A stretch of 64,000 nucleotides of DNA from Candidatus Blautia faecipullorum (GTDB taxonomy: Bacteria > Bacillota > Clostridia > Lachnospirales > Lachnospiraceae), in NCBI GenBank assembly GCA_019115125.1, contig DXEG01000005.1, positions 55,517 through 119,516 on the forward strand, written 5' to 3'. Made by a program: the position numbers and the translations under genes. Under the pieces are notes generated by a model. The model was not told the origin of the DNA. It saw only the letters and a program-made list of their open reading frames with translations, and ran no database searches. This document shows positions 2,277-49,164 of the stretch, piece by piece (position 1 is the first letter of the stretch; each line of letters opens with the position of its first letter).

Positions 2277-3041
2277 TCAGATACGAAACGGGCGTCCCTT
2301 TCTGCAGACTGTCAGCATAACAAGCCCGGCAGCCAATATAAAAATACTGATAAACTGGGAGGTGGAAAGAATACCCACGCTCCCGCGGATCAGATCTCCC
2401 CGGAAAAACTCCAGAATAAAACGTCCAATACTATAAAAGATCAGATAACAGGCTGCCACCTGACCATCCGCCTTTTTTCGCCGGGCAGCGAACAAAAGTA
2501 TTCCGAAATGAAGAAAATCCAACACAGCAGAATAAATCTGCGTAGGCACTAAGGGCACATTGTTGGGCGCGAAATCGGAATCATGAAAAGTAATAGCCAA
2601 AGCCCCACCTGTTTCCATGCCGTAGCAGCATCCGGCAAGCAGACAGCCCACTCTTCCAAATCCCTGAGCCAGCGCCACAGAAGGAGCCAATAAATCAAAA
2701 TAGGCAAAAAAGCTCAGCCTTTTAACCCGGCAGTACAGCCACCCTGCCAGGATGCCTCCGATGATCCCCCCATATATCACATACCCGTCGGTCAGCGTAT
2801 TAAGAAGGAAGCCCGGATCCTCCAAAATCTCCTTCCATTCCGTGATCCAGAAAAGGAGCTTCGAGCCGGCCATTCCTCCCAAAAGGCACCAGATAACAAG
2901 ATAAAAAATCTGCTCGTTCTGCATTTTCATTTTTTTTGCCCGGTATTCTGCCGCGATCCAGGCAGCCATCACCCCGACAGCGATCATCAGTCCATATCCA
3001 TATACTGTAAAAGGACCGATGGTAAAAAGTTCATTTTTCAT
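2277..3041 (-). CDS. lgt: Prolipoprotein diacylglyceryl transferase
   Basis: 254 residues, usual size for Lgt. It is a polytopic inner-membrane enzyme that moves diacylglycerol from phosphatidylglycerol to the lipobox cysteine of prolipoproteins, the first step of lipoprotein maturation. The family signature is clear at residues 127-141 (GFGRVGCLLAGCCYG), with YGYGLM near the N-terminus and several hydrophobic helices (about 15-33, 47-66, 88-105, 205-245). The ATG at 3041 overlaps the end of the small upstream ORF by 11 bp, so translation is probably coupled. Identification is secure. Confidence 0.95.
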   Translation of the reverse strand: MKNELFTIGPFTVYGYGLMIAVGVMAAWIAAEYRAKKMKMQNEQIFYLVIWCLLGGMAGSKLLFWITEWKEILEDPGFLLNTLTDGYVIYGGIIGGILAGWLYCRVKRLSFFAYFDLLAPSVALAQGFGRVGCLLAGCCYGMETGGALAITFHDSDFAPNNVPLVPTQIYSAVLDFLHFGILLFAARRKKADGQVAACYLIFYSIGRFILEFFRGDLIRGSVGILSTSQFISIFILAAGLVMLTVCRKGRPFRI

Positions 3042-3375
3042 AAACTGCTCCTTCTGCTTCTTTATCGGCCTCTCTCAGCCACTCCTTCACCTGCTCTTCA
3101 CTAATGTCCGCCGCTTCTGCGATCTTTTCCACAGAAACACCCAATTTGTATAATTTCACCGCCATCCGGCATTTTTCTTTTTTCGATTTTTCTTCAGCTT
3201 CTTTTGCAGCTTCCTTCGCGGCTTCTTTTGCCGCCTCTCTCTTCTCGTCTTCGATGTATGTCTTTAGAATATATTCATCATCAAATATTGTCATCATAAT
3301 ATCTATGACCTCTCTTTCTCTGCTCTCCAAATATTCTCTCAGCACATTCCGCCAGCCTTGCATTCGCTCTGTCAT
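3031..3375 (-). CDS. Small protein resembling the C-terminal tail of Rpn-family nucleases
   Basis: 114 residues starting MTERMQGWRN. The first part (EYLESREREVIDIMM, then FDDEYILKTY) and the run of EAAK repeats (about 48-62) resemble the C-terminal tails of Rpn / PD-(D/E)XK transposase-like nucleases common in Lachnospiraceae. A helix-turn-helix-like end follows (LGVSVEKIAEAADISEEQV). No nuclease domain is present. Its first 95 bases overlap the arginase-family gene in another frame and its last 11 overlap lgt. An alternative start at 3417 would give 128 residues. It could be a real small gene or a remnant. Confidence 0.5.
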   Translation of the reverse strand: MTERMQGWRNVLREYLESREREVIDIMMTIFDDEYILKTYIEDEKREAAKEAAKEAAKEAEEKSKKEKCRMAVKLYKLGVSVEKIAEAADISEEQVKEWLREADKEAEGAVYEK

Positions 3376-4072
3376 TGCAAAGCCTGCTTTCATGGGAATC
3401 CGGATCCCCCTCTCCACAGACGTCCATGCCTAATATGTTCTGATTTTTAAAAATAATACGCAGATACTCTACGAGCTCCTCCAGTCTCATATCCCCCTGG
3501 CTCCAGGCGGTAGACGCGTCTTCCGGACAGAGTATGTCCTTGTCAACCGAAAGATAGCAGGGCAGCTCCCGGGGAAGTCCCGCGAAAAATTCTTTTACCT
3601 CATCCCCTGGAAGCTCTCGCAGTTTTTCCCTGGACAGATATCTTACCCGCTTTCTTAATTCCGGATCTGCCTGTTCAAAATCGGACTCAGCCGGTCCGAT
3701 CAAAACCAGCTCTTTCAGATTCGGAAGCTTCTCCAGAGCCTCGGCCGCCCAGCCGCCGCAGGACAGAAGTCCACCGAAAGCAGGCGGCTGCATATCCGTA
3801 TGATTATCAAACAAGATCAGCCGGAAAGGAACCTTCACTTTTTCCAGCCACAAAAGACTCATATAATGGTAGTTGCCGGAATCAAGGAAATGGATCTCCG
3901 CGCCGGAAAATTCCTCTATCCGCTCTCTGATCGTATCAGCCGCCTCCGTATCACAGTAACAGCTGCATCCGGTAAGCTGCTCCAGATCAATCCACACCGG
4001 GGACCGCCCCTGATAAAACTGCTGTTCCTTATATATGCCTGTAAAGTTCATAAGAATCACATTGTCTGTCAC
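3281..4072 (-). CDS. Arginase/ureohydrolase family protein
   Basis: 263 residues beginning with GTG at 4072, with AAGGCAGG upstream. The binuclear manganese ligands of the arginase fold are visible: His in GNYHY (about residue 68), the Asp-His-Asp set in FDNHTD (about 88-93), and Asp residues in SVDKD (about 176-180). Members hydrolyse guanidino compounds such as arginine, agmatine or formiminoglutamate; the substrate here cannot be assigned. The last 95-137 bases overlap the Rpn-tail-like ORF, so the extreme C-terminus is uncertain. It is divergent from padR with a 304-bp gap. Confidence 0.8.
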   Translation of the reverse strand: MTDNVILMNFTGIYKEQQFYQGRSPVWIDLEQLTGCSCYCDTEAADTIRERIEEFSGAEIHFLDSGNYHYMSLLWLEKVKVPFRLILFDNHTDMQPPAFGGLLSCGGWAAEALEKLPNLKELVLIGPAESDFEQADPELRKRVRYLSREKLRELPGDEVKEFFAGLPRELPCYLSVDKDILCPEDASTAWSQGDMRLEELVEYLRIIFKNQNILGMDVCGEGDPDSHESRLCNDRANARLAECAERIFGEQRKRGHRYYDDNI

Positions 4073-4376: not shown

Positions 4377-4709
4377 ATGAACCTGGACAAATGGAAATCA
4401 CAGCTTGTCCGCGGCATACTGGAATACTGCATCCTGCTCATGCTGGACAGGAAATCCTGCTACGGATATGAAATTTTACAGGAGCTAAGTAAATATCCCA
4501 TCATTGCCTCCACCGAAAGCACAGTTTATCCTCTGCTGAGAAGGCTTCAGAAGGAAAATTTTCTGAAATCTGTCTGGCAGGATTCCGCCGAGGGGCTTCC
4601 TCCCCGCAAATACTACGCGCTGACTACCGAGGGAGAGGCATATCTGAACGCGATGAATGAAGAATGGGAACATTTACTGTCTGCAATTCATGATCTGAAA
4701 GGAGAATAA
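4377..4709 (+). CDS. PadR family transcriptional regulator
   Basis: 110 residues, the size of a short PadR-s1 protein: a winged helix covering about residues 10-80 (RGILEYCILLMLDRKSCYGY, then STVYPLLRRLQ) and a C-terminal dimerisation helix. The ATG at 4377 follows AAAGGGGTG. The next gene starts 7 bp after the stop and encodes a HAAS-domain membrane protein, the usual partner of this PadR type. The effector and any targets beyond its own operon are unknown. Confidence 0.9.
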   Translation: MNLDKWKSQLVRGILEYCILLMLDRKSCYGYEILQELSKYPIIASTESTVYPLLRRLQKENFLKSVWQDSAEGLPPRKYYALTTEGEAYLNAMNEEWEHLLSAIHDLKGE

Positions 4710-4715
4710 AATATT

Positions 4716-5273
4716 ATGAACAAAGAACTTGAGAAATATCTGAATTCTGTAGATAAATACCTGAAACCGCTTCCGGCTCTTGAAAGAGCGGATATTATCA
4801 AAGAAATTGAAAGCTCTGTTCTTGAAATGGAACGCGACCAGCTCTCCGATGAACAGATTATCAAAAGACTGGGAGAGCCAAAAAATCTGGCCAAGGCATA
4901 TCTTGGGGATCTTCTCGCCAACCAGAAGGGAATAAGCTGGAATAAAGTTCTCACTGCCTGCGCTTTCTACAGTGCAGTAGGCTTTTCCGGGATCGTCATC
5001 ATTCCCACCCTGGTAATCACAGCCCCTGTGTTCATTTTCTGCGGCGCAATCTGCCCGGCTCTGGGGCTTTTTAAGCTTATTGCCTCAATGCTGGGTTATC
5101 ATATCCCTTATATCAGTTTTCAGTTTGGGGCCCTTTCCTTCTCCCCCGCCGTTGAATTCATTTTTTCACTGATCACCGGAGCAATCCTTGTTATCCTCGG
5201 AAGAGCCGCGTGGAAACTGCTGCTGTATTATATCAGGGCCGTCAGCAAAACAAAAAACCATCTGGCGGTTTAG
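4716..5273 (+). CDS. HAAS/DUF1700-type membrane protein, PadR partner
   Basis: 185 residues. The N-terminal 70 residues form the helical HAAS-type domain (MNKELEKYLNSVDKYL, then RLGEPKNLAKAYLGD). Hydrophobic segments follow at about 82-105, 108-130 and 147-175, so the protein should sit in the membrane with the small domain in the cytosol. Such proteins are encoded beside PadR regulators and are thought to pass a membrane signal to them; that link is known at family level and inferred here. It forms a two-gene operon with padR. Confidence 0.8.
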   Translation: MNKELEKYLNSVDKYLKPLPALERADIIKEIESSVLEMERDQLSDEQIIKRLGEPKNLAKAYLGDLLANQKGISWNKVLTACAFYSAVGFSGIVIIPTLVITAPVFIFCGAICPALGLFKLIASMLGYHIPYISFQFGALSFSPAVEFIFSLITGAILVILGRAAWKLLLYYIRAVSKTKNHLAV

Positions 5274-6415: not shown

Positions 6416-7198
6416 TCAGGATCCTGTGCTCCTGTGATACTCTCTCGTAAATTTTTCCAGCATGTGATCTATATTTCTGTTGTGGACATGGGTCGCCGGT
6501 TTCCTTGAAAAATGGGCGAGATCCTTTTTGATCTCCTCGAGTATTTCCTTATCCGCGTTCATCTCCGCCGCCCTGCTCTCATATTCGATAGGCGTCCTTA
6601 TGCTGTGATAAGCGAGCAGAAAGCACTTCAGCGCCGCCCTGCTGTGATTTTCCTCATAAGCCATCTGAAAATACTCCAGAGCTTTCTCCATCTGGAACAG
6701 ATAAGTATACGCGCACCCGAGATTATGGCAGATACTCTCCCGGAAGCCTTCCCTCTCATTCTGAAGATCATCCCGCTCCAGAAGCTTCTGATATACCCGG
6801 ATTGCATGAACATACATCCCGTTTTCCACAAGAGTATCGCCCTTCTGCTTTTCCCTCACCGCCGGACTCTCCGCGTCCAGCTTCTGAAGCCTGTTATTTA
6901 ATGCTTTCAGTTCCTCATAAGTGAGATAATTGATTTCCTTGAAAACCGGATAAAGAAACTCCTCCGTACTGACAAATTTCCCGATCTTCGCTCTCAGCTT
7001 CGCCGCCAGCTTGGGAAGCTTCAGCTCCTCCTGAAGCCAGGCACACAGGCCTTCATTCATAACGGTATGATCCACCAGATAGAGATTATGGTAAAGATAA
7101 TAGCAAAGCTCTTCCAGCGAATAGATATTTGCGCTGATATTTTCGATATAATACGGTATTTCCGCCTTTTGGGTCTGACATAATATATAGCCGCTCAC
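6416..7198 (-). CDS. Tetratricopeptide-like protein of the DUF5717/DUF5716 cluster
   Basis: 260 residues. The GTG at 7198 is chosen because AAAGGAGG sits 7 nt upstream; a longer ORF would begin inside the preceding gene. Helical throughout; residues about 128-205 read like two or three TPR units (KGDTLVENGMYVHAIRVYQK, then NLGCAYTYLFQMEKALEYFQ). No signal peptide or membrane segment, so probably a cytosolic scaffold or adaptor. It follows the DUF5716 gene by 13 bp and should be the third gene of that operon. No function is known to me. Confidence 0.75.
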   Translation of the reverse strand: MSGYILCQTQKAEIPYYIENISANIYSLEELCYYLYHNLYLVDHTVMNEGLCAWLQEELKLPKLAAKLRAKIGKFVSTEEFLYPVFKEINYLTYEELKALNNRLQKLDAESPAVREKQKGDTLVENGMYVHAIRVYQKLLERDDLQNEREGFRESICHNLGCAYTYLFQMEKALEYFQMAYEENHSRAALKCFLLAYHSIRTPIEYESRAAEMNADKEILEEIKKDLAHFSRKPATHVHNRNIDHMLEKFTREYHRSTGS

Positions 7199-7211
7199 AC
7201 TGCCTCCTCCT

Positions 7212-8459
7212 TTACCACTGGGCCGTCTCTTTCCATATTTTTCCGCTGCTTGGGAACAGGTCTCCAAAGCCCAGATCCTTCACCGTGATCTGACATTCCT
7301 TCTGAGAAATATACTGAAGCTCCAGGAAAAGCCGGGTCGTTTTGTTAGGCCTCTTCGGCAGTCCCGGCAGGGCCATGGCAACGCGCTTTTTCTCTGTGCT
7401 TCCCATTTTACTTATAATAAAGACAAGCTCTTCCACATTGTCAAGGATCAGCTCGCAGGATGCCTTGCAGTCATACCAGTTGCTTCCCGCCTCGATCAGC
7501 GGATGATAGGCGGGCGCTCCCATTACCCGCATATCCATACCCACATCTGTCAGCACAAGGGATCTGCTAAGGTAATGATAACCCTTCAGTCTCCTGTTGA
7601 TCAGCCGCTCCGCCCCGGCCGCGCAGGCGCCTGCCGCAAAAAGATTGCTTCCGAAAAATACTTTTCTTTTCTGATAACAGAGCAGCTTTACGGATTTCAC
7701 CGCCCATTCCTGGTCAAATCCCTCTCCGTTCATCTGAATACTGGAATAAAGATCCGTCCCCAGGGTTTCTTTTATAAACTTGAAGAAATCCTCATCCCGC
7801 TCCTCCGGAGTCTCTCTGAGTTCCGCCTTCACGGGCTCTTCCAGACGCACCAGAACCGGTTTCGTGCCTGAATTCATCACCAGCTTACGGAAAATCACAT
7901 GATTTCCCTCGAAGCTGTACCATCCGACGCTGCGGTTCCAGGTCTCTACCTTCTGAGTCAGCACATAATAATAGAAGCTTTCCTCATAATCCAGAAAACT
8001 GTATACATCCTCCGGAAATCCAAGCATTTCGCAGGCTTTTCTGAGATTCTCCACCTGAACGGCGTCCAGCGTCTCCATTGTAATGATCATGGATTTTGTA
8101 TTATGAACCACATCCATGACGCCGAGGAACTTCAGCAGTCCGCGGAAGAAGCGCGCAAGGATCTCCCAGGGCATAAGCGTCTCGCCGGCCACCTGCACGG
8201 GCTCCCTGCCTGCGGCGATCCCGTAAAGGTCATCCAGAAGAAAGCCTCCCTTTTCCCTGGCAAAATACTCCGCTTCCAGACCTACGCTGTAGGCGTCCTG
8301 ATCCGCCCGTTTACAGAGACAGGTAGGCGTCTCGTAAAGACTGCTTCCCACCTTCACAGGAACGGAACGGGGTTCCTCCGCCTTACGGTCATAATAGCAG
8401 ATCTGCGAATATTTTTTTCCGAAATCAATTCCGATAATCAAATCCCGTGTTTCATTCAT
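7212..8459 (-). CDS. DUF5716 family protein, Hsp70/actin-fold ATPase-like
   Basis: 415 residues. The N-terminus DLIIGIDFGKKYSQICYYD is a phosphate-1 motif of the actin/Hsp70/sugar-kinase fold, and a second acidic motif (VLTDVGMDMRVMG) lies at about 300-312. The substrate-binding half of a true DnaK is missing, so it is not a general chaperone. I recall members named DUF5716 and always placed next to DUF5717 in Lachnospiraceae; that name is from memory. The start overlaps the DUF5717 stop by 4 bp (ATGA), indicating coupled translation and a complex. Function unknown. Confidence 0.75.
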   Translation of the reverse strand: MNETRDLIIGIDFGKKYSQICYYDRKAEEPRSVPVKVGSSLYETPTCLCKRADQDAYSVGLEAEYFAREKGGFLLDDLYGIAAGREPVQVAGETLMPWEILARFFRGLLKFLGVMDVVHNTKSMIITMETLDAVQVENLRKACEMLGFPEDVYSFLDYEESFYYYVLTQKVETWNRSVGWYSFEGNHVIFRKLVMNSGTKPVLVRLEEPVKAELRETPEERDEDFFKFIKETLGTDLYSSIQMNGEGFDQEWAVKSVKLLCYQKRKVFFGSNLFAAGACAAGAERLINRRLKGYHYLSRSLVLTDVGMDMRVMGAPAYHPLIEAGSNWYDCKASCELILDNVEELVFIISKMGSTEKKRVAMALPGLPKRPNKTTRLFLELQYISQKECQITVKDLGFGDLFPSSGKIWKETAQW

Positions 8460-11400
8460 TTCTCATGTTCCTTTTCTATGATAAACATTTCCTTCACATA
8501 CTGCTCCTGGCGGAGGTAATGCTTCAGCCCTTCCGTCACCTCCTGGCGCTTGTCCAGCTTTCTGGCGGACAAAAGCTGGTTCAAAAGCTGATACTTGCTT
8601 CCGGAAGCACCTTCTACTTTTTTCATGGTGATCACACGCTCGGGCGTTTTTCTGGAGGTTCCGCGATAGTCAATCTGGAAATAATAATGCATGGACTCTC
8701 CGTAAAACAGCGTAAAGGTTTTTGTGAAAATCCCCTGATAGACCTCTTTTACCGGAGTGCTTTTATACTCTCCTCCCTGGCCCAGGCCTGTATCCATACT
8801 GTAAAAAAGCGTCACTCTCGCGTCCGGATTCGCGTGACATTCTACAAAGGTTTTGTCGTCAAGCTGATACGGACTCAAAAGCTCCGGCGCGATCCTTCTG
8901 AAAAATCCGAATACCATATTATCTTTTGCACATTCGTCCAGAAGAATTCGCTCTGTTTCAATATACTTGTCACTTTTTTCTTTGGAGAGCTCCTTCAGAA
9001 GCGCCAGCCTGCACACCCGGTTCACCGGCCAGTTATGATCCATGGCGTATTCAAGACGGCTGCGGATAAAGGGCGTCATCGCGTACTCTTTCACAAAAAT
9101 GCCATAGGCTACCTGGGTAAGATAGGCTCCCACAATCCGTTCTTTTCCCGCCTGGTTCACATAGGATTCCAGCACCGCCTCCCCTTCCTTACGGAAATCC
9201 GAGGCAAACATAAGGAGACTTAAAATCTTCTCCTCCAGATCGTAGGTATCCATCTCAAAGCCCCTGGCGCTTTTCCAGATGGAAAGCATTTCATCCAGTG
9301 GGCCAAACCGGTACTGCATGAGATAATGCAGGATCACCTCGTCGTATTTTCCGCATCTGTATACCTCGGAAGCCAGAGCCAGAAGCTCTTCATCCTCCGT
9401 CATATCGGATTTCAGTATCATACGGCTGGTCATTTTCAGAAGGCTGCTCAATGAAAGCCCTTCATACCCGAATTCTTCCACAATCCCCATAGCCTGCCGG
9501 AACATTCTCCTGGAAATCAGCACTTCCAGAAGAACCGGACGGTCCACAAAGGCATATTCCCGGTAATCCATCTTTTTCAGATAGTGATCCAGATCCTCTC
9601 CCTGAATATGGGCCGCGTAGTAGTCCAGTATCTCCCTGCGTACAGTCCTTCTGAACTCTTCCGTGCATACCGGTGATCCGGCAAGTCTCTGATAATACTC
9701 CAGATTCGCGGAATCAAGGGGATTTTCACTGCAGTAATGAAGAAGGACTCCCGGATCGGCCGCGCCCATTTTCAGAAGCCGGGAAACCACTTTTCCGTCA
9801 TCCATGAGCTTTTTCAGGTTGTAATGCACTGTGGAAACATACCTTCTCTGCTTATCGTCCTGGAACAGGATCACAGCGTCTTCTGTATAAATTTTCGGAT
9901 AGGCCACTCCCTGTACGCAGGGGTAACACTCCTCCTCCTTCATCTGGCTGTGGCAGACGATCACCTGGCGGATCTTGGGATCGTCACAGTACAGACGGTG
10001 AGTAAAAAGCATTCCCGCCACTTTCTCCGCCTCTTCACGGGTCTGCGGATCAAAAAGAAATTCCTGATAGACAGCGGCATAATTCTCATCCATCTGTCCC
10101 TCGGCTATTTTGCGCCGCGCGAAGCGTTTCATACTGTCGCGGTAGCTCTCGTAGATCAGAGGCTCCTTTTCTTTATGGGCGATGACGCTTGCGTATACGA
10201 AGGCCTTCCTGGTATCTCCCAGCGTATTGTCATTATAATTAAAATACATAAGCAGCGGCTTGGGAAGCTCTCTCTGATAAGAGATATCCATCGTTTCCAC
10301 ATAATATTCAAAAAGCCGCGTAATTCTCAGGCCATGGCTCACCGCAAGAGAAAACCACCGGAAATATTCCGGTTTTCTTGGATTTCCCTTCATGACGTAT
10401 TTGCATACCGCTTCCAGCACGTCGTCAGAGGGGAATTTTTCGTAGCCTGCCGCAAGCGCCTGATACAGCACATTGCTGAAGCTTTTTTCATAGCCGGACA
10501 GATAAGACATCCGCATGACAAGCTCCTCTGTAAGAAGCCCTCTTTTTCCGGCGTAGCAGAATACCTGCATCCAGAATGGGCTGATCCTGTGCAGAAGAGA
10601 CAAATCCCTGCTGACCCACTTCCAGGCCTCCATGTAGAGCAGCGGACTTGTACAGCCCTTCTCAAACTGCTCCTCCATCATAAAAATCCCCATGGAGGGA
10701 CTGTTTTTATAGTAGCTGTCCATGTGCAGAAGTATCCATAACAGCAGAAAGCTGTCCTCCTTCTGCATATAAAAATTCTGGATCCTTCTGAGAGCCTGCT
10801 CCCGGTCCTTATATAAGCCTGTAAGACAGCAGAGATAGAGGTAAACTCCTGCCAGCTCAAGATCATCACGGGTAAATTCTCTGTCCTGATATTTCTTCAG
10901 AATCCCCTGGGCTTCCGCCGTCTTTCCTTCCAGATGATCCACAAAAGCTTCATACATCTGGTATTCCGGATACTCACAGCCGGACTCTCTGAGCTGATTT
11001 AAAACAAAATGCGTGCTTCCTGCCCACGCCTTAAAATCCAGCCGTCCCTCTCTGTAGTCTATGTAATCCCTCACCATGGATATCCTGGAACGCTTCTCCT
11101 CCCCATGGACGTTGACACGGACATTTGGTCCTCTGGACGCGGTCACTCGATAGACAAGCTCCTGATAGGGGCTCCTTATCAGGATTTCCCCAAACTGAAG
11201 CCCTTCTTTTAATTTATCCGCGTGGATAATATATTCAATCCGGCAGGTGCTTCCTATAAAAGACTCCTCGGTGACCGCCTTTCGTTCTGCCTCCAGGAAG
11301 CCGCCTCTTGTCTCAATATCCAGTCTGATATGCCCCCACCCGCTTTTCTGTAACTCAAAAAACTCCTGGCTGGACTCATTCATACTGTAAAATTCCGCGT

Positions 11401-11995
11401 CCTCTGTTTTCAGCGAAACGGACACCGGCTCTTTTTCCTTTAAGCCGATCAGAAATTCCTCCAGGTGCTGATAGGTGACCGGCTGCCTGGACATTCCCGC
11501 ATAGAGTGCCTTCTGACTGTTCCCGGCTCCCGCCATGACAACCGGAAAATATTTATCGGTGAACAGGCGATACGCCTCCCGGAAATCCCTTTTCGCGATC
11601 TCACGGAAGGCTTCCATATCCCGGATTTCTCCCTCTGAGCTCAAGATCTGTTCTTTTTTTGCTTCAATGAGAAAAGGAATCTTATATTCCCCCACATTGG
11701 AGGTCACGCAAAGCCAGCCGGAGCATTGATCCCCCGGCTTCATTCCTGTCCCGTCGGCTCCGTAAGGCAGGCAGACGGTTGTTCCGGAAAATTTTCCTAT
11801 GCCCGGAACAAACCGGCGGTTGGAGGAAGTAATATATCCCTGAATCTTCTCATTGTCCTCTGTTCCCAGATACAGCTCTCCCCTGGCTGTCTGTCCGGCC
11901 TCCAGGGAAACGAAGATCTTTTCCTTTGAAAAAAGAAGCTGCGGCTGCTCGTATCTGAATTTTCCACTTAGTAATTGTTCGATCTTTTTCTTCAA
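8456..11995 (-). CDS. DUF5717 family giant protein
   Basis: 1179 residues, the largest protein here. It begins with TTG at 11995 (weak GGTGA upstream). Residues about 15-110 look like a beta-sandwich (LFSKEKIFVSLEAGQTARGE), about 170-300 a second beta-rich part, and about 330-1000 a long run of helical TPR-like repeats with many Tyr/Leu pairs. A further beta domain (about 1045-1130) ends the protein. No signal peptide, membrane helix or catalytic motif is seen. The architecture suggests a large cytosolic scaffold for the DUF5716 ATPase-fold partner. The family name is from memory and the function is unknown. Confidence 0.75.
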   Translation of the reverse strand: MKKKIEQLLSGKFRYEQPQLLFSKEKIFVSLEAGQTARGELYLGTEDNEKIQGYITSSNRRFVPGIGKFSGTTVCLPYGADGTGMKPGDQCSGWLCVTSNVGEYKIPFLIEAKKEQILSSEGEIRDMEAFREIAKRDFREAYRLFTDKYFPVVMAGAGNSQKALYAGMSRQPVTYQHLEEFLIGLKEKEPVSVSLKTEDAEFYSMNESSQEFFELQKSGWGHIRLDIETRGGFLEAERKAVTEESFIGSTCRIEYIIHADKLKEGLQFGEILIRSPYQELVYRVTASRGPNVRVNVHGEEKRSRISMVRDYIDYREGRLDFKAWAGSTHFVLNQLRESGCEYPEYQMYEAFVDHLEGKTAEAQGILKKYQDREFTRDDLELAGVYLYLCCLTGLYKDREQALRRIQNFYMQKEDSFLLLWILLHMDSYYKNSPSMGIFMMEEQFEKGCTSPLLYMEAWKWVSRDLSLLHRISPFWMQVFCYAGKRGLLTEELVMRMSYLSGYEKSFSNVLYQALAAGYEKFPSDDVLEAVCKYVMKGNPRKPEYFRWFSLAVSHGLRITRLFEYYVETMDISYQRELPKPLLMYFNYNDNTLGDTRKAFVYASVIAHKEKEPLIYESYRDSMKRFARRKIAEGQMDENYAAVYQEFLFDPQTREEAEKVAGMLFTHRLYCDDPKIRQVIVCHSQMKEEECYPCVQGVAYPKIYTEDAVILFQDDKQRRYVSTVHYNLKKLMDDGKVVSRLLKMGAADPGVLLHYCSENPLDSANLEYYQRLAGSPVCTEEFRRTVRREILDYYAAHIQGEDLDHYLKKMDYREYAFVDRPVLLEVLISRRMFRQAMGIVEEFGYEGLSLSSLLKMTSRMILKSDMTEDEELLALASEVYRCGKYDEVILHYLMQYRFGPLDEMLSIWKSARGFEMDTYDLEEKILSLLMFASDFRKEGEAVLESYVNQAGKERIVGAYLTQVAYGIFVKEYAMTPFIRSRLEYAMDHNWPVNRVCRLALLKELSKEKSDKYIETERILLDECAKDNMVFGFFRRIAPELLSPYQLDDKTFVECHANPDARVTLFYSMDTGLGQGGEYKSTPVKEVYQGIFTKTFTLFYGESMHYYFQIDYRGTSRKTPERVITMKKVEGASGSKYQLLNQLLSARKLDKRQEVTEGLKHYLRQEQYVKEMFIIEKEHEK

Positions 11996-12052: not shown

Positions 12053-12081
12053 ATTATACACTACAAAATGAACGGGCGCAA
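12053..12081 (-). promoter_or_regulatory. Promoter of the DUF5717 cluster
   Basis: On the minus strand TTGCGC (12076-12081) and a perfect TATAAT (12053-12058) are spaced by 17 nt, about 60 nt upstream of the DUF5717 start. This indicates a vegetative (sigma-A) promoter divergent from sigK. The rest of the 263-bp gap has two short direct repeats (ATCATAACAT) but no other recognisable site. Confidence 0.6.
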
Positions 12082-12258: not shown

Positions 12259-12909
12259 TTGAAGACCTTTTTAAAACCTTTGACATCGGCTGAGGAAAAA
12301 TTCTATCTTCAACGTTACCAGGAGGGCGATTTGGAAGCAAAGAATATCCTGATTGAGCGTAATCTCCGGCTCGTGGCTCATGTTGTAAAAAAATATCAGG
12401 GAGCTGACGAGGATCTGGATGATTTGATATCCATCGGAACCATCGGCCTGATCAAAGCAGTGTCCACCTTCGACACGGCAAAATCCGCACGGCTTTCCAC
12501 CTACGCCGCCCGATGTATTGATAATGAGCTTCTGATGATGCTTCGTTCCAAGAAGAAACGTTCCAGGGAGGTCTCCCTCTATGATCCCATCGGCACTGAT
12601 AAAGAGGGGAATGAGATCAGCCTGCTGGACATCATCGAGAGTCCCCCTGTGGATATTGTGAACGAATATTCCACCCGTGAGGATATCTCACGCCTGATGG
12701 CGGTCATAGAGGACGTCCTCACGCCCAAAGAATATCAGGTCATCTGTTTAAGATACGGCCTCTTCGGAGTCTCTGAACAGACCCAGAGAGAGATCGCCGG
12801 AAAACTGAAGATCAGCCGTTCCTATGTGTCCCGCATCGAAAAAAACGCCCTGAAAAAGCTGCGCGGGATCTTTGAGGAGACAGAGCAGGAGCAATATGAG
12901 TCTTTTTAA
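12259..12909 (+). CDS. sigK: Sporulation sigma factor SigK, without pro-sequence
   Basis: 216 residues. Regions 2 (RNLRLVAHVVKKYQG, DLISIGTIGLIKAV, TYAARCIDNE) and 4 (TPKEYQVICLRYGL, QREIAGKLKISRSYVSRIEK) match SigK closely, including DPIGTDKEGNEISLLDI. SigK directs late mother-cell transcription in sporulation. The start is TTG at 12259 preceded by GAGGTGA; an in-frame TGA at 12247-12249 rules out an N-terminal extension, so the roughly 20-residue pro-sequence of Bacillus SigK is absent, as in Clostridioides difficile. The gene is uninterrupted, with no skin-type insertion. Confidence 0.9.
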   Translation: MKTFLKPLTSAEEKFYLQRYQEGDLEAKNILIERNLRLVAHVVKKYQGADEDLDDLISIGTIGLIKAVSTFDTAKSARLSTYAARCIDNELLMMLRSKKKRSREVSLYDPIGTDKEGNEISLLDIIESPPVDIVNEYSTREDISRLMAVIEDVLTPKEYQVICLRYGLFGVSEQTQREIAGKLKISRSYVSRIEKNALKKLRGIFEETEQEQYESF

Positions 12910-23954: not shown

Positions 23955-24908
23955 TCAGTCTTTTCTGGCTGTAACAGAAACCCATTCTCCCTGTCTGGTC
24001 ACTTCCACCAGAGTCAGGCCCGCCGCCTTTACGGCCTCAGTCACGGTTTCCTCCTTAACATCCAGAATTCCGGATGTAATATAGTAAGCTCCCTTTTTCA
24101 TCTGGCCAACGATCACCGGAGTAAGGGGGATCAGCACATCAGCCAGGATATTCGCTGTCACGATATCGTATTTCTCATATCCCACCTGATCCTGAACAGC
24201 CTTGTCGTCAATAATATTTCCGATCAGCATATCAAATGCTTCCTCCGGAATCTGGTTGGACTCTTTGTTCTCCGCCACCGCGGGAACCGCGCAGGGATCC
24301 AGATCGGTTCCCGCCACATGAGCGGCGCCCAGCTTCAGCGCCACAATTCCCAAAATTCCGCTTCCGGTGCCTACGTCCAGAATTTCACTTCCGGGCGTCA
24401 CATATTTTTTCAGCTGGCGGATCACAAGCTGTGTCGTTTCATGCATTCCTGTGCCGAATGCTGTCCCGGGATCGATATGAAGGATCATTTTATCCTGATC
24501 CTCGGCTTTTACTTCCTCCCAGGAGGGAACAATCAGAATATCATCCACATAAAACTGATGAAAATACTCCTTCCAGTTGTTGATCCAGTCCTTATCCTCC
24601 GTCCAGGATTCCTCAATACTTCCCTCGCCGATGTCCATAAAGGAACGCAGCTCCTCCAGGACGTTCTTCACGTTTTTCAGGATTTCCTCTCTGTCCGCGT
24701 CTTCCTCCAGATAAAAGCTGAGATAGGCAATCCCGTCATCTTCCGGCCCCTCCGGCATGATATCCACAAACATCTGCGCCTTATCGTCCTCTGTAAGGGG
24801 CTGTCTGTCCTGGATCTCCACCCCCTCTACTCCTACGTCGGCAAGGGCGCTGATCACAACGTCCTCCGCCTCTGTTTTTGTCTTTATAGTAAAACGATTC
24901 CACTTCAT
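23955..24908 (-). CDS. prmA: Ribosomal protein L11 methyltransferase
   Basis: 317 residues. N-terminal ferredoxin-like domain that recognises L11, then a class I SAM methyltransferase domain: GTAFGTGMHETTQLV (about 160-174), LDVGTGSGILGIVAL (about 186-200) and VTANILADVL (about 257). Trimethylates L11 lysines and the N-terminus. It is downstream of dnaJ but separated from it by a strong terminator, so it probably has its own promoter. Confidence 0.94.
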   Translation of the reverse strand: MKWNRFTIKTKTEAEDVVISALADVGVEGVEIQDRQPLTEDDKAQMFVDIMPEGPEDDGIAYLSFYLEEDADREEILKNVKNVLEELRSFMDIGEGSIEESWTEDKDWINNWKEYFHQFYVDDILIVPSWEEVKAEDQDKMILHIDPGTAFGTGMHETTQLVIRQLKKYVTPGSEILDVGTGSGILGIVALKLGAAHVAGTDLDPCAVPAVAENKESNQIPEEAFDMLIGNIIDDKAVQDQVGYEKYDIVTANILADVLIPLTPVIVGQMKKGAYYITSGILDVKEETVTEAVKAAGLTLVEVTRQGEWVSVTARKD

Positions 24909-25010
24909 TTTTTTCCTCCTGATATACCTGCCGCGTAATCCGGCGCGGTTTAAAAGTCCACTCCCAGTTTTTCTGTTTTTTGACTTTATCCTCTATCATA
25001 CATGAAAGCA

Positions 25011-25041
25011 GAAAAAAAGAAAAGAGGATTTCCCTCTTTTC
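25011..25041 (-). terminator. Terminator after dnaJ
   Basis: Read on the minus strand, GAAAAGAGG pairs with CCTCTTTTC over a 5-nt loop (25019-25041), followed by seven Ts. It ends the hrcA-grpE-dnaK-dnaJ transcript before prmA. Confidence 0.85.
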
Positions 25042-25061
25042 CTGAAAAGTTTCTTATGATT

Positions 25062-26246
25062 TTATTCCTCAAAGGTTTCTTTAAGTTTATCCATAAAACT
25101 CTTTTTCTTTTTTCCGGTTTTTTCTGAGCCGCCGCTTTTCTCTCCTCCGGAAGCTCTGTTCCCGCAGGCCGCGTCAAACTGACGGAGCGCTTCCTTCGCC
25201 TCTTCGGTAAGGTTCGTGGGAACCTGGACAACCAAAGTGACATAATGGTCGCCCCGGATATTTTTGTTTCGCAGAGACGGTACGCCCTTTCCTTTCAGGC
25301 GGATACGGGTATCTGTCTGAGTTCCGGGCTTGACTTCATAAGCAACTTCTCCGTCTACCGTATTGATGCGCACTTCTCCTCCAAGGGCCGCCTGCGCGTA
25401 GGTAATCGGCGCGGTAGAAAAAATATTCATATCCTGTCTCTGGAAGATCGGATGACGGGCAATGTTCACTTCCACGAGAAGATCACCTCTCGGTCCTCCG
25501 TTGGCGCCCGGCTCTCCCTTTTCACGGATACGGATACTCTGGCCATTATCAATACCCGCCGGAATGGATACCTGGATTTTCTTTCTGGAAGAGGTGTATC
25601 CGGTACCTCGGCAGGAGGTACATTTCTCTTTGATCACTTTTCCTGTTCCGCCGCATTCCGGACAGGTCTGCACGTTCCGCACCATGCCGAACATAGACTG
25701 CTGGGTATAAACAATCTGGCCTTCTCCGTGGCATTTCGGACAGGTTACCGGCTCAGTACCCGGCTTCGCTCCGGTTCCATGACAGGAAGCGCACTCGTCC
25801 TTGAGAACAATATCAAGCTCCTTATCGCAGCCAAATACAGCCTCCTCAAAGGTAATATTGACTCTGGCACGAAGATTGGCGCCCTTCATGGGGCCGTTAT
25901 TGGCCCGTCTTCTGCTGCCTCCGCCAAACAGATCCCCGAAAATATCTCCGAAAATGTCGCCCATATCCGCGCTGTTAAAGTCAAAGCCGCCAAATCCGCC
26001 GGCTCCTCCTCCGCCGTTCTCAAAAGCCGCGTGGCCGAACTGGTCGTACTGTCTTCTCTTGTCCGGATCGCTGAGTACCGTGTATGCTTCTGTGGCCTCT
26101 TTAAATTTTGCCTCAGCATCTTTATCACCCGGATTTACATCCGGGTGATATTTTTTGGCTAATTTCCGATATGCTTTTTTCAGATCTGCGTCACTGGCGT
26201 TTTTCGCAACACCCAGGACTTCATAGTAATCTCTTTTATCAGCCAT
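25062..26246 (-). CDS. dnaJ: Chaperone protein DnaJ
   Basis: 394 residues, type I DnaJ with all domains: J domain with HPD (about 5-70, [10 protein letters not shown]), a Gly/Phe-rich linker (about 75-115), four CxxCxGxG zinc repeats ([32 protein letters not shown]; about 150-220), and the C-terminal substrate-binding domains. Stimulates the DnaK ATPase and delivers clients. The C-terminus ends in a Lys-rich tail. It is the last gene of the heat-shock operon, 25 bp after dnaK. Confidence 0.97.
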
Positions 26247-26271
26247 ATTATCTCTTTCCTATGCTTTATTT

Positions 26272-28161
<1,890 letters not shown>

Positions 28162-28206
28162 TTATTTGTCTATATCTATTTTGATAAGCTGCTATAATAA
28201 AAGTAA

Positions 28207-28362
28207 CAGTTCAGCCATACAGTGGTCGGGAAGCATAAAACATGCTTGCATGTTTTTGCGAACGGACATCTGTATGAGCTAAGCGCCCGTTTATGAGTAA
28301 AACAGTGGCGTCAGCCACAGTTAGCACGCAGTGCGGTTTTACGAATGGCGCGGGCTGAACCA
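28207..28362 (+). repeat. Repeat family A, full-length copy 3 (about 155 bp)
   Basis: Bounded by the inverted ends GTTCAGCC (28209-28216) and GGCTGAAC (28353-28360). Inside are several palindromes: AACATGC/GCATGTT, GTGGC/GCCAC around GTCA, and CGCA-GTGCG. Partial copies occur at 2183, 4257, 30230 (reversed), 34183 and 62469 (reversed). It lies between grpE and dnaK within the heat-shock operon and has no coding potential. Confidence 0.8.
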
Positions 28363-28376
28363 TTGCAAATAAAGCA

Positions 28377-29000
28377 CTAATTGGCGACTTTCACCATGCT
28401 GTGACGGACCACAAAGCCTTTGTAGGTGTAGCCCTTCTGAAGCTCTTCCACCACCATGTTCTCGCCTGCGTTCTCATCCTCCACATGCATCACCGCGTTA
28501 TGGAAATCCGGGTTAAACTCTTTTCCGACGGCTTCAATGGTCTCCACTCCCAAACCTTCAAGAGTAGTAAGCAGCTGCTTGTAGATCATCTGCATACCGT
28601 CCGCAAAAGCGTCTCCTTCGGGCGCCTGCGCCAGTCCTCGTTCAAAGTTATCCACAACAGGAAGGATTTTCTCGATGATCTCCCTGGCTCCGATGATATA
28701 CATGCTGGACTTTTCCTTTTCCGTACGTTTGCGGAAATTATCAAACTCAGCCATGCTCCGCTTCAGCCTGTCGGTGAGGTCCTCCACCTGCTGCTCCAGT
28801 TTGTCTTTTTTCTTTTTTCCAAAGAAAGAGGTCTTGCTCTTTCCTTCTGATTTTTCATCTTCCCCTGAAGCGCCCTGCTCCGGCTCCTTCGTTTCTGTCT
28901 CCTGAGCATCCTGTGCCGGTTCCTTCACAGCTTCGTTTTCCGGAATCTCTTTTCCCGGCTCCTCCTGCACTTCAGATACTTTCTTGTTCTCTTCTGACAC
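28377..29000 (-). CDS. grpE: Nucleotide exchange factor GrpE
   Basis: 207 residues; GTG start at 29000 with GTGGAAGAAAG upstream. The first 60 residues are a disordered acidic Glu-rich extension, followed by a long helix (about 75-110; LTDRLKRSMAEFDNFRKRTEKE) and the C-terminal beta-wing (AVMHVEDENAGENMVVEELQ). Releases ADP from DnaK. Starts 28 bp after hrcA. Confidence 0.95.
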   Translation of the reverse strand: MSEENKKVSEVQEEPGKEIPENEAVKEPAQDAQETETKEPEQGASGEDEKSEGKSKTSFFGKKKKDKLEQQVEDLTDRLKRSMAEFDNFRKRTEKEKSSMYIIGAREIIEKILPVVDNFERGLAQAPEGDAFADGMQMIYKQLLTTLEGLGVETIEAVGKEFNPDFHNAVMHVEDENAGENMVVEELQKGYTYKGFVVRHSMVKVAN

Positions 29001-29028
29001 GTGCTTTCTTCCACCTTTCTATATCTAC

Positions 29029-30102
29029 CTACTGGCTGTCTTCGTTTTGATTATTTTCCTTCTTTCTGTCCTTCCTGAACACCTGGTCAAGCTCCATCTT
29101 CAATGTTTTCAGGCTGTCCACCACGTTTTCATAATCCATCCGTTTCGGTCCCACAATACCGATGGTGCCGTGCATTCCTTCGCCAAGCTCATAGGTCGCG
29201 GTTACAACGCTGCAGTCCTTCATAGTATCAATGGGAAGTTCGTCCCCGATATATACCTGAACTCCTGTATTGTCTGTATCCGCCATCCGCTCTTTTACGA
29301 AATCCGCAAGCTGCTGTTTTTCCTCAAATGCGGATATCAGCTCTGTCGCTCTGGTCTTATCGGACAGCTCCGGATATTTGAAAAAGTTCGTGGCTCCTGA
29401 AGTATAAATCTCCAGATCGTCCTCGTCCACCTGAATGGTTGCCGCCACAGCGTCCAGTACTCTCGCCACCAGTCCGCTGTGAATACCCGCCTGCTCCTTC
29501 AGCCTCGCGATCATACCAAGATTAATATCTTGAATGGGCAGGCCGTTCAGGTTGGTATTCAGAAGAAGATTCAGTTTCAGGATCGTCTCATCGTCCATCC
29601 GTTCGTCAAGATCAATAATCTGATTTCGGATGACGTTGCCTTCACAGACCACCACCGCCACAAGCTGCAGCTCATTCACTCTGGAAAGCTGTATGAATTT
29701 CAGCCTGCTTCCGCTGTACTGCGGTACGGAGATCATAGCCGCGTAATTGGTGTTGGAGGCAAGAACCCTCGCCACATTCTTGAGCACTTTTTCCATTTTG
29801 TCCGTTTTCTCAATCATCAGATTGCGGATCTCCTGGATCTCAGCTTCCTTTTCCTGCATCAGCTCATCCACATAAAGCCGGTAGCCCTTGTCGGAAGGAA
29901 TCCGTCCCGCGGACGTATGAGGCTGTACAATGTAGCCCAGGTCTGTCAGGTCTGACATTTCATTCCGGATAGTCGCTGAGCTGACGTTCAGGTCTGTGTA
30001 CTTGGAAATCGTTCTGGAACCAACCGGCTCGCCTGTTTCCATATAAGTTTTGATAATCGCTTTTAAAATCTTTATCTTGCGATCGCTCAAACCATTTTCC
30101 AC
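29029..30102 (-). CDS. hrcA: Heat-inducible transcription repressor HrcA
   Basis: 357 residues. The GTG at 30102 is chosen because AAAGGAG lies 8 nt upstream; an ATG eight codons earlier would read through that site. Winged-helix N-domain (LSDRKIKILKAIIKTYMETG, SSATIRNEMSDLTDLGYI) and the HrcA core (residues about 105-330). It represses this operon by binding CIRCE and needs GroEL for activity in other Firmicutes; a perfect CIRCE lies 28 bp upstream. Confidence 0.95.
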   Translation of the reverse strand: MENGLSDRKIKILKAIIKTYMETGEPVGSRTISKYTDLNVSSATIRNEMSDLTDLGYIVQPHTSAGRIPSDKGYRLYVDELMQEKEAEIQEIRNLMIEKTDKMEKVLKNVARVLASNTNYAAMISVPQYSGSRLKFIQLSRVNELQLVAVVVCEGNVIRNQIIDLDERMDDETILKLNLLLNTNLNGLPIQDINLGMIARLKEQAGIHSGLVARVLDAVAATIQVDEDDLEIYTSGATNFFKYPELSDKTRATELISAFEEKQQLADFVKERMADTDNTGVQVYIGDELPIDTMKDCSVVTATYELGEGMHGTIGIVGPKRMDYENVVDSLKTLKMELDQVFRKDRKKENNQNEDSQ

Positions 30103-30129
30103 ATTCTCAGCTCCTTTCCGTTTCATCTG

Positions 30130-34376: not shown

Positions 34377-35534
34377 ATGCGTTTTTCAAAACGACTGGAC
34401 AGATTCGGCGATGAGATCTTTGCCGCTCTGAACAACCGCAGGATGGAGCTTGAGCGGCAGGGAATGACCATTTATAATATGAGCGTGGGAACTCCGGATT
34501 TTCAAACTCCGGAACATATCAAACAGGCCCTTGCGGAGGCGGCTATGGATGATGAAAACTGGAAGTACAGTCTCCGGGATCTGCCGGAGCTCCTGGACGC
34601 AGTGTGCGAATATTATCAGAAACGTTTTCGGGTGGAGATCTCCCCTGATATGGTAATGTCTGTCTATGGCAGCCAGGAGGGGATGGGACATCTGGGAATG
34701 ACCCTCTGCGATGAGGGCGACACCGTTCTCCTTCCGGATCCCTGCTACCCGGTGTTCGCCGCGGGAAGCCTGATGGCAGGAGCCGTTCCCTATTATTATC
34801 CCCTTACCGCGGAGCATGATTTTCTTCCCTATGTAAAGGACATTCCGGAAGACGTCGCCAGAAAAGCAAAATATATGATCGTCTCTCTTCCCTCCAATCC
34901 GGTGGGCAGCGTCGCCGTACCGGGGCTTTATGAAGAGATCGTGGAATTCGGAAAGAAATATGACATTCTGATCATCCATGACAACGCTTACAGTGATATC
35001 ATCTATGATGGAGAATACGGCGGAAGTTTTCTGGCGACTCCGGGGGCAAAGGAAATCGGTGTGGAATTCTTCAGCCTTTCTAAATCCTTTAACGTCACCG
35101 GCGCCAGAATCAGTTTTCTGGTAGGCCGTCCCGATGTGATCGCCGCCCTCCGGAAACTGCGCAGCCAGATTGATTTCGGTATGTTCCTTCCCATTCAGAA
35201 AGCCGGTATCACGGCTCTCAAGGGTTCTCTTGACAGTGTAAAGGAGCAGTGTGCCCTCTATCAGGAGCGGAGAGATGCCCTCTGTGAGGGTCTCCGCAGC
35301 ATCGGCTGGGATCTGCCCAACGGCAAAGGAACCATGTTCGTATGGGCAAGAATACCCGGCGGCCGCATGGACAGTATGGACTTCTGCATGGAGCTGATGG
35401 AGAAGGCCGGGGTGATCGTCACTCCCGGAGCAAGCTTCGGTCCCCACGGGGAAGGCTATGTACGTTTCGCGCTGGTACTTCCCCCGGAAAAGATCCGCGA
35501 GGCAGTGGCAGCCATACAGAGGAGCGATCTGTAA
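34377..35534 (+). CDS. Class I/II PLP-dependent aminotransferase
   Basis: 385 residues, fold type I. The PLP lysine is in FFSLSKSFNVTGARISFLVG (about residue 238), with SVGTPDFQTP near 38, NPVGSVA near 180 and DNAYSDI near 204. The sequence resembles LL-diaminopimelate aminotransferase and aspartate/alanine aminotransferases; the DapL-type signature is partial, so substrate is left open. Starts with AAGAAGG 8-9 nt upstream of ATG. Monocistronic, facing nrdJ. Confidence 0.85.
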   Translation: MRFSKRLDRFGDEIFAALNNRRMELERQGMTIYNMSVGTPDFQTPEHIKQALAEAAMDDENWKYSLRDLPELLDAVCEYYQKRFRVEISPDMVMSVYGSQEGMGHLGMTLCDEGDTVLLPDPCYPVFAAGSLMAGAVPYYYPLTAEHDFLPYVKDIPEDVARKAKYMIVSLPSNPVGSVAVPGLYEEIVEFGKKYDILIIHDNAYSDIIYDGEYGGSFLATPGAKEIGVEFFSLSKSFNVTGARISFLVGRPDVIAALRKLRSQIDFGMFLPIQKAGITALKGSLDSVKEQCALYQERRDALCEGLRSIGWDLPNGKGTMFVWARIPGGRMDSMDFCMELMEKAGVIVTPGASFGPHGEGYVRFALVLPPEKIREAVAAIQRSDL

Positions 35535-35622
35535 ACAGGCATAAACGGAGGAAAGACCTTGAGCCCCGCCCCAATATGAGCATAAAAACAGGATGCATAT
35601 TCCCTCAATATGCGAATATATG

Positions 35623-35693
35623 GCAGGATTGCGGGAGTTCTCAGCGCGGAGCAATCCGCGGACATCATAATGATCGTACTCCCGCAATTCTGC
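35623..35693. terminator. Large inverted repeat between convergent genes
   Basis: GCAGGATTGCGGGAGT (35623-35638) pairs with ACTCCCGCAATTCTGC (35678-35693), one mismatch in 16 bp; an inner GGATTGC/GCAATCC stem competes with it. It lies between the aminotransferase and nrdJ stops and may terminate both transcripts, but the inner part resembles 49105-49140 and may come from a mobile repeat. Confidence 0.5.
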
Positions 35694-48934: not shown

Positions 48935-48984
48935 ATTCCACATACATCCGGCCGCATCCACAGCGGAGTGTTTATATTATAGGA
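48935..48984 (+). repeat. Repeat family B, left part of interrupted copy 2
   Basis: ATTCCACATACATCCGGC, GCATCCACAGCGGAGTG and TTTATATTATAGGA. It matches 63452-63496 and 23136-23184. Its continuation is found after the insertion, at 49165-49222, and ATTATAGGA (48976-48984) is repeated there. Confidence 0.65.
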
Positions 48985-49164
48985 TTCAGGCGTCAAAAGT
49001 CATTCCACACGTTGTGCTTGCACATAAGTGGGGACATGACTTTATGACGCGCCCCGACATGAGGAAGTAGTGGGGCGGGGACCCCGCGGATTCCGAATGG
49101 CGGGTAGGATTGTGGGAGCACGAAGTGCGGAACAATCCATGAATTAGCTTTTGACACCCTAATC
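48985..49164 (+). mobile_element. MITE-like insertion inside repeat family B
   Basis: About 180 bp with imperfect inverted ends (GGCGTCAAAAG at 48989-48999; CTTTTGACACC at 49148-49158), flanked by a direct repeat ATTATAGGA (48976-48984 and 49165-49173) that reads as a 9-bp target duplication. Inside is a GC-rich hairpin GCCCCG/GGGGCG and a stem GGATTGT/ACAATCC (49106-49138). No ORF of note; it would have to be moved by a transposase in trans. The 452-bp gap 48891-49342 consists mostly of this and family B. Confidence 0.6.

Follow-up and report, generated by a model that had tools for sequence, protein, structure and literature searches.

A conserved DUF5717-DUF5716-TPR gene set of Lachnospiraceae and its putatively retired Hsp70

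The gene set considered here, which encodes a DUF5717 protein, a DUF5716 protein and a TPR (tetratricopeptide repeat) protein, lies in a 64,000-nucleotide stretch of Candidatus Blautia faecipullorum (contig DXEG01000005.1, positions 55,517 to 119,516 of the forward strand; hereafter, the window), and several described systems come close to it. With Hsp70/DnaK (PF00012), DUF5716 shares sequence homology in the N-terminal half of the nucleotide-binding domain (NBD) and in the beta subdomain of the substrate-binding domain (SBD-beta), and its predicted structure matches the DnaK fold; it differs in having no catalytic residues, no subdomain IIB segment and no lid. Ssz1, of the yeast ribosome-associated complex, is a lidless Hsp70 as well: as described in PMC7083937, its NBD binds but cannot hydrolyse ATP, its SBD-beta is complete and holds a low-affinity inbuilt substrate, and the protein sits with a partner. 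Ssz1 is, however, eukaryotic and still binds ATP, and its partner is a J-protein (Zuo1), whereas no J-domain was matched in the three trio proteins at E 0.1. For the GAP1-N2 GTPase-centred systems, Kaur et al. (eLife 2020; PMC7159879) describe a theme of HSP70, GrpE and sometimes a second HSP70 without the peptide-binding domain, together with a protein in which FNIII repeats are fused to a DnaJ or TPR part. HSP70s, GrpE and TPR proteins are neighbours there as in the sister cluster described below, of which the theme is the closest published neighbour found; the window trio differs in that it has neither GrpE nor a motif-intact Hsp70.

The Pfam families DUF5717_N, DUF5717 and DUF5716_C, whose cut-offs the window proteins exceed by far, are listed there as families of unknown function, whereas DUF5716 is here placed in Hsp70. 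No study on the function of the DUF5716/DUF5717/TPR set was found in the literature covered, most subscription journals and all bioRxiv preprints being outside that coverage; for DUF5716 or DUF5717, only an unrelated paper was retrieved. An earlier reading made from the sequence alone (the sequence-only reading) had named no assigned function. The main text of a paper on bacterial DnaK duplication (PMC11019930), as far as available, contains neither "Lachnospir" nor "Clostridi". DUF5716 is also linked here to a larger Hsp70/GrpE/vWA cluster of sister families; that the trio corresponds to part of this cluster, and that a fourth gene, not found here, is present in many genomes, had escaped the sequence-only reading. 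We see about an even chance that the trio encodes one motorless complex that is built on a retired Hsp70 and is somewhat Ssz1-like. The sequence-only reading had proposed an undescribed dedicated system and is partly supported: the gene set exists as stated and no description of it was found in the literature covered, but its supposed ATPase appears to be dead and the trio looks like a remnant of a larger system. The features of the locus are as follows.

8456-11995, minus strand: DUF5717 scaffold, 1179 aa, TTG start, with Pfam matches
7212-8459, minus strand: DUF5716, decayed Hsp70, 415 aa; lidless, made up of an NBD that lacks subdomain IIB and an SBD-beta
6416-7198, minus strand: TPR adaptor, 260 aa, GTG start; TPR-like repeats besides an N-terminal region that is conserved
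7203-7213, minus strand: AAAGGAGGAGG, ribosome-binding site for the TPR gene, seen in the sequence itself ahead of the GTG
12053-12058, minus strand: candidate -10 element TATAAT of the operon, read from the sequence, with a weak upstream hexamer

The DUF5717 and DUF5716 genes overlap by exactly 4 bp (8456-8459) and the DUF5716 and TPR genes are separated by exactly 13 bp (7199-7211), with the strong ribosome-binding site inside the gap, so that the coupling of the three genes was correctly described in the sequence-only reading.

Hsp70 homology and decay of DUF5716

The DUF5716 protein matches DUF5716_C at E 1e-98 and carries GIDFGKKYSQICYYD near its N-terminus. A profile built from 25 DUF5716 rows found the DnaK chains of PDB at E 8.5e-9, with NBD and SBD-beta matched colinearly, and the AlphaFold2 model (61 rows, pLDDT 92.1, pTM 0.89) retrieved DnaK 7kru_A with Foldseek (E 7e-19, TM score by query 0.57), Ssz1 and the ribosome-associated complex being matched as well. 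Homology of DUF5716 to Hsp70 was thus demonstrated with the sequence profile and the predicted structure, and the actin/Hsp70 fold proposed earlier could be narrowed to Hsp70.

A working ATPase, as proposed together with the fold, was not supported: the nucleotide pocket is degenerate, an outcome that the sequence-only reading had itself named as counter-evidence. In the alignment of 138 Lachnospiraceae DUF5716 rows (135 distinct) with the window's own DnaK, the catalytic Lys, the catalytic Glu and an intact GGG loop were each kept in 0/138, the phosphate-2 Thr was kept in 10/138, and Lys, Glu and Thr never occurred together (0/138). In the window protein, both the Lys and the Glu positions are occupied by Tyr, GGGT is replaced by EGNH, and the phosphate-2 Asp is replaced by Ser. 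The span from the phosphate-2 to the adenosine motif has a median of 68 residues (52-103) in DUF5716 versus 133 in HspB (the DUF5716-type Hsp70 of the sister cluster) and 136 in DnaK; residues 189-256 (IIB) and 516-629 (lid) of the window's DnaK have no counterpart in most DUF5716 rows, and the window's DUF5716 protein has 415 aa versus 629 aa for its DnaK. Subdomain IIB is the lobe that clamps the nucleotide and docks exchange factors. An ATP-driven dedicated machine with DUF5716 as the working ATPase would agree with the Hsp70/actin fold, with the phosphate-1 Asp (124/138) and with the adenosine-motif Gly (138/138), but the loss of the catalytic Lys and Glu, of the GGG loop and of the IIB segment, together with the scarcity of the phosphate-2 Thr and the Ser at the phosphate-2 Asp of the window protein, makes such a machine highly improbable and ATP hydrolysis by DUF5716, as judged from these residues, very unlikely. 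Loss of the Hsp70 interdomain linker motif is not claimed, since the sister Hsp70s also do not have the DnaK form in the same alignment. The window's DnaK gene stands in an hrcA-grpE-dnaK-dnaJ-prmA order (23955-30126, minus strand), so that the general Hsp70 system is found about 14 kb from DUF5716, hrcA, grpE and dnaJ being named by eye.

The DUF5717 protein was matched by DUF5717_N over residues 1-865 (E 8e-271) and by the C-terminal DUF5717 family over residues 868-1171 (E 2e-94), and its TTG start agrees with the N-terminus common to the family. In the AlphaFold2 model (43 rows, pLDDT 85.5, pTM 0.58), the predicted order is beta-sandwich, helices, beta-sandwich, alpha-solenoid, beta, alpha-solenoid, beta-sandwich and helices; the label of giant helical-repeat protein would therefore be half right, in that the protein has 1179 aa and two predicted alpha-solenoid stretches but contains beta-sandwiches besides. 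With Foldseek, the beta-sandwiches retrieved ciliary central-pair proteins and the CEP192 SPD-2 domain and the solenoids retrieved the SKI complex, Ctr9 and IFT-A, but whole-chain TM scores were low throughout; the likeness to ciliary proteins, and that to viral beta-sandwich proteins, was taken as one of fold only. One stretch of the TPR protein exceeded the cut-off (TPR_2, 29.2 bits; cut-off, 27), and the label is further based on an alignment of members and a profile comparison against TPR chains of PDB. A winged helix-turn-helix domain, found below the cut-off in only 1/20 members, was not used.

Gene order and distribution

The gene order was compared in 60 loci from 58 other Lachnospiraceae genomes and in the window (59 genomes). 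DUF5717 and DUF5716 were adjacent and on the same strand in all 57 loci that hold both (window included), and the TPR gene followed DUF5716 or was fused to it in 59/59 genomes. DUF5717 was split into two frames in one locus (L102), the trio was interrupted by contig ends in one genome (G202), and the sole real separation placed DUF5717 apart from DUF5716-TPR (G224). Thus, the gene set is conserved and tightly coupled, as had been expected from the window, and homologues regularly found apart, which would have spoken against it, were not seen. In four genomes (L076, L089, L095 and L107), DUF5716 and TPR form one open frame of 685-713 aa, which requires at least two changes on the DUF5717 tree; such natural fusions argue for physical association. 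Among 80 named DUF5716 loci, which are the best matches to one query and hence an uneven sample that overlaps with the 60 loci, all three genes were present in 79, and the 80th starts at a contig end. The names were Lachnospiraceae or genera including Butyrivibrio, Kineothrix, Roseburia and Eisenbergiella, a few being only Bacillota, Clostridiales or uncultured bacterium. The conservation in relatives indicates that the trio is more than a chance arrangement.

In a sample of 220 Lachnospiraceae genomes, one per genus, DUF5716_C and DUF5717 were each found in 217, with a single match in nearly all of them; the three genomes without the genes were the same for both and may represent assembly gaps or losses. 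In a class sample (196 genomes), both genes occurred in 8/8 Lachnospiraceae and in 0/188 others, only two of which belong to the same order. The origin purely within Lachnospiraceae that the class samples suggested was ruled out by a sample of the order (196 genomes), in which DUF5717_N was found in 94 genomes (22 Lachnospiraceae and 72 from other families; one of the 94 matches lies below the cut-off). DUF5717_N was not found in the remaining 102, and no Lachnospiraceae are among the 20 of these that were listed. In a phylum sample (329 genomes), strong matches were confined to 4 Lachnospiraceae; five weak matches besides were rejected as signs of spread beyond the order, three because they fall in a short part of an unrelated frame (1047-1056 aa) and the other two because they are TPR proteins.

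A gene set that is near-universal in Lachnospiraceae and has no assigned function is a strong candidate for core physiology, and Lachnospiraceae belong to the abundant bacteria of the human gut. The trio is also a candidate marker for the family. The near-universal spread would suit a complex with a structural role at the cell envelope or the division site, in which an actin-like fold serves assembly and DUF5716 stands in, for example, for FtsA. A fourth gene, CC4, whose coiled-coil product has two membrane segments according to inspection by eye, would also suit this role, and SHS2_FTSA was not matched in any of the 31 Lachnospiraceae genomes examined. However, 15 of 20 genomes from other families likewise gave no FtsA match, and none of these has DUF5716; FtsA loss therefore does not track the trio, and replacement of FtsA was rejected. 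A broader FtsA profile was uninformative because most of its matches lay in frames of MreB size (about 330-375 aa), length being the sole criterion for this comparison. All 25 DUF5716 proteins scanned matched DUF5716_C, SHS2_FTSA not being among the four families matched at E 0.1, and DUF5716 is an Hsp70 by sequence and predicted fold. We thus consider the envelope or division-site explanation unlikely. In one locus (L097:8889-11258, genome G404), CC4 lies inside a 789-aa frame, roughly double the length normally seen, which may reflect a fusion.

The sister-family cluster and a candidate motorless complex

Within the order but outside Lachnospiraceae, twenty loci (the sister set) were compared, and ten of these genomes were read further along. 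Sister DUF5717 is encoded by two open frames in 15 loci, by one 1326-aa frame in 2 and by one frame of 931-1006 aa in 3. An Hsp70 gene (HspA) and a gene whose product combines a long coiled coil with a GrpE domain at the C-terminus (E 4e-7, one scanned) follow DUF5717 in 18/20 loci; L205 and L218 have neither nearby. In 8 of the 10 extended genomes, profiles gave the order DUF5717, HspA, GrpE-coiled coil, HspB, HspC, Hsp70-vWA and TPR, Hsp70-vWA being an Hsp70 that ends in a vWA tail. Of the other two, one (G527) has genes too diverged for the profiles used in the places of HspB and TPR, and in the other (G583) HspC is the last gene of the run, a 699-aa Hsp70 frame being located on a different contig. 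CC4 follows the cluster in G520 and G527.

The catalytic Lys and Glu and the phosphate-2 Thr are retained in 29/29 sister HspA, HspC and Hsp70-vWA proteins, and this set is retained in 0/10 HspB, nine of which have lost Lys, Glu and GGG altogether. HspB, though lidless, still has an insert as long as IIB (median 133). Two of the three HspB scanned (L209 and L219) match both DUF5716_C and HSP70 in Pfam, the third (L213) matching no family. In a quick tree of 56 rows, DUF5716 and HspB were split from DnaK, HspA, HspC and Hsp70-vWA with an SH-aLRT (approximate likelihood-ratio test) support of 100.

Searches of the window and of 140 Lachnospiraceae loci at E 1e-10 gave no GrpE-coiled coil protein, and the HspA and Hsp70-vWA profiles retrieved only the window's own DnaK; the HspC profile had matches in 11 and in 18 Lachnospiraceae loci, the matches listed being the DUF5716 genes. 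On the basis of these searches, the trio corresponds to the sister order minus HspA and GrpE and minus HspC and Hsp70-vWA at the locus. The absence of both the IIB segment and a GrpE-type gene fits an Hsp70 that is no longer driven by nucleotide exchange, and loss is the simpler direction of change because HspB is already without catalysis yet retains the IIB insert. We therefore infer that the trio is a reduced remnant of the larger sister cluster.

The Hsp70, GrpE, TPR and vWA parts are common to the sister cluster and the GAP1-N2 theme, which raises the alternative that the trio belongs to a conflict or defence system of that kin (Kaur et al. 2020). Sister HspA, HspC and Hsp70-vWA weakly match PDC-M61B, a model of a candidate defence system (E 1e-4 to 2e-8), which would agree with it, as would a membrane protein that stands upstream of DUF5717 in 6/20 sister loci and of which the one scanned matches ZorA models. 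However, none of the three proteins in the window had a PADLOC match at E 0.01, and in the 8 sister clusters with a full profile reading only Hsp70 or GrpE genes lie between DUF5717 and TPR; no GAP1-N2 GTPase was found in this interval, the flanking genes being outside the profile scan. Moreover, the trio is near-universal across 220 genera, whereas defence genes are usually patchy in their spread. A defence role is, in our judgment, quite unlikely. The scanned upstream protein (L204:5770-7155), which combines membrane segments with a coiled coil, matched PADLOC ZorA in its coiled-coil part at E 1e-7.

In the motorless complex to which we give an even chance, DUF5716 would be a non-cycling, permanent binding subunit, seated on the TPR adaptor and the DUF5717 scaffold of beta-sandwiches and alpha-solenoids. 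Its lidless SBD-beta might hold a segment of a partner or bind clients weakly, as Ssz1 does; chaperone cycling, if still needed, would come from the regular DnaK or from a different Hsp70 encoded outside the locus, and CC4, where present, might tether the complex to the membrane. We more tentatively suggest, at somewhat less than even probability, that the family stripped a multi-Hsp70 machine of its ATPases and exchange factor at the locus and kept the dead Hsp70, the TPR adaptor and the giant scaffold as a complex that works without energy input. Its role would be a core and perhaps essential one in housekeeping, of a kind so far described for no bacterium.

Several observations weigh against this explanation or parts of it. 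Residual weak nucleotide binding by DUF5716 is conceivable, the phosphate-1 Asp and adenosine-motif Gly being kept. The likeness to Ssz1 is an analogy rather than demonstrated kinship. CC4 is strong in only a minority of genomes (47/120, with weak matches in 5 more) and was not found in the genome of the window. As for the relation to HspB, the 56-row tree has long branches and does not unite HspB in one clade, and HspC of L209 also matches DUF5716_C above the cut-off, more weakly. The HSP70 profile (E 1e-5) retrieved DnaK and a 341-aa frame from the genome of the window, and a further Hsp70 frame lies elsewhere in at least 6/20 Lachnospiraceae genomes, so that the loss holds at the locus only; these at least six frames may be candidates for a moved HspA, HspC or Hsp70-vWA. 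The direction of change is deduced rather than observed, and ancestry of the full cluster is not proven, because DUF5717_N was not found in 102 of the 196 genomes of the order sample.

The sister cluster offers a natural experiment, in which a scaffold and an adaptor can be compared with and without Hsp70 motors and the role of the pseudo-Hsp70 itself can be asked. For DUF5716, the focus moves from ATPase assays to binding partners.

Upstream region and neighbouring genes

A single TATAAT promoter had been proposed for the three genes. The hexamer is present at 12053-12058, but the sequence 17 bp upstream, TTGCGC, agrees with TTGACA at only 3/6 positions, the site was not among the calls of the promoter scan, and TATAAT occurs 43 times in the window versus a mean of 29 in shuffled sequences; its role as the operon promoter is therefore merely plausible.

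The divergence of the trio from sigK, also proposed earlier, was borne out: a sigK-like gene (12259-12909, plus strand, TTG start) exceeds the cut-off of NF004471 and lies just below that of TIGR02846 SigK (291.9 versus 298.65). This neighbour could suggest a sporulation system. However, an aminotransferase is the divergent neighbour in 9 of 20 Lachnospiraceae loci, and SpoIVA was found by profile search in 145 of the 220 Lachnospiraceae genomes (144 above the cut-off) versus 217 for the trio genes, which occur in genomes without SpoIVA; a sporulation role was therefore rejected as having hardly any probability. The aminotransferase is of class I/II and is also divergent from DUF5717 in 7 of the 10 extended sister genomes (e.g., L054:4653-5840 and L201:11619-12719); in the window, its position is held by the sigK-like gene.

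Elsewhere in the window, a PadR regulator is followed by a HAAS-domain protein (4377-5273, plus strand), likely a regulatory pair, and a short open frame with a AAKEAAKEAAKEA repeat (3031-3417, minus strand) overlaps an arginase-like gene. Two Clostridiales-1 RNAs (RF01699) were found on the plus strand, at 48982-49146 (122.8 bits) and at 35530-35664 (53.4 bits).

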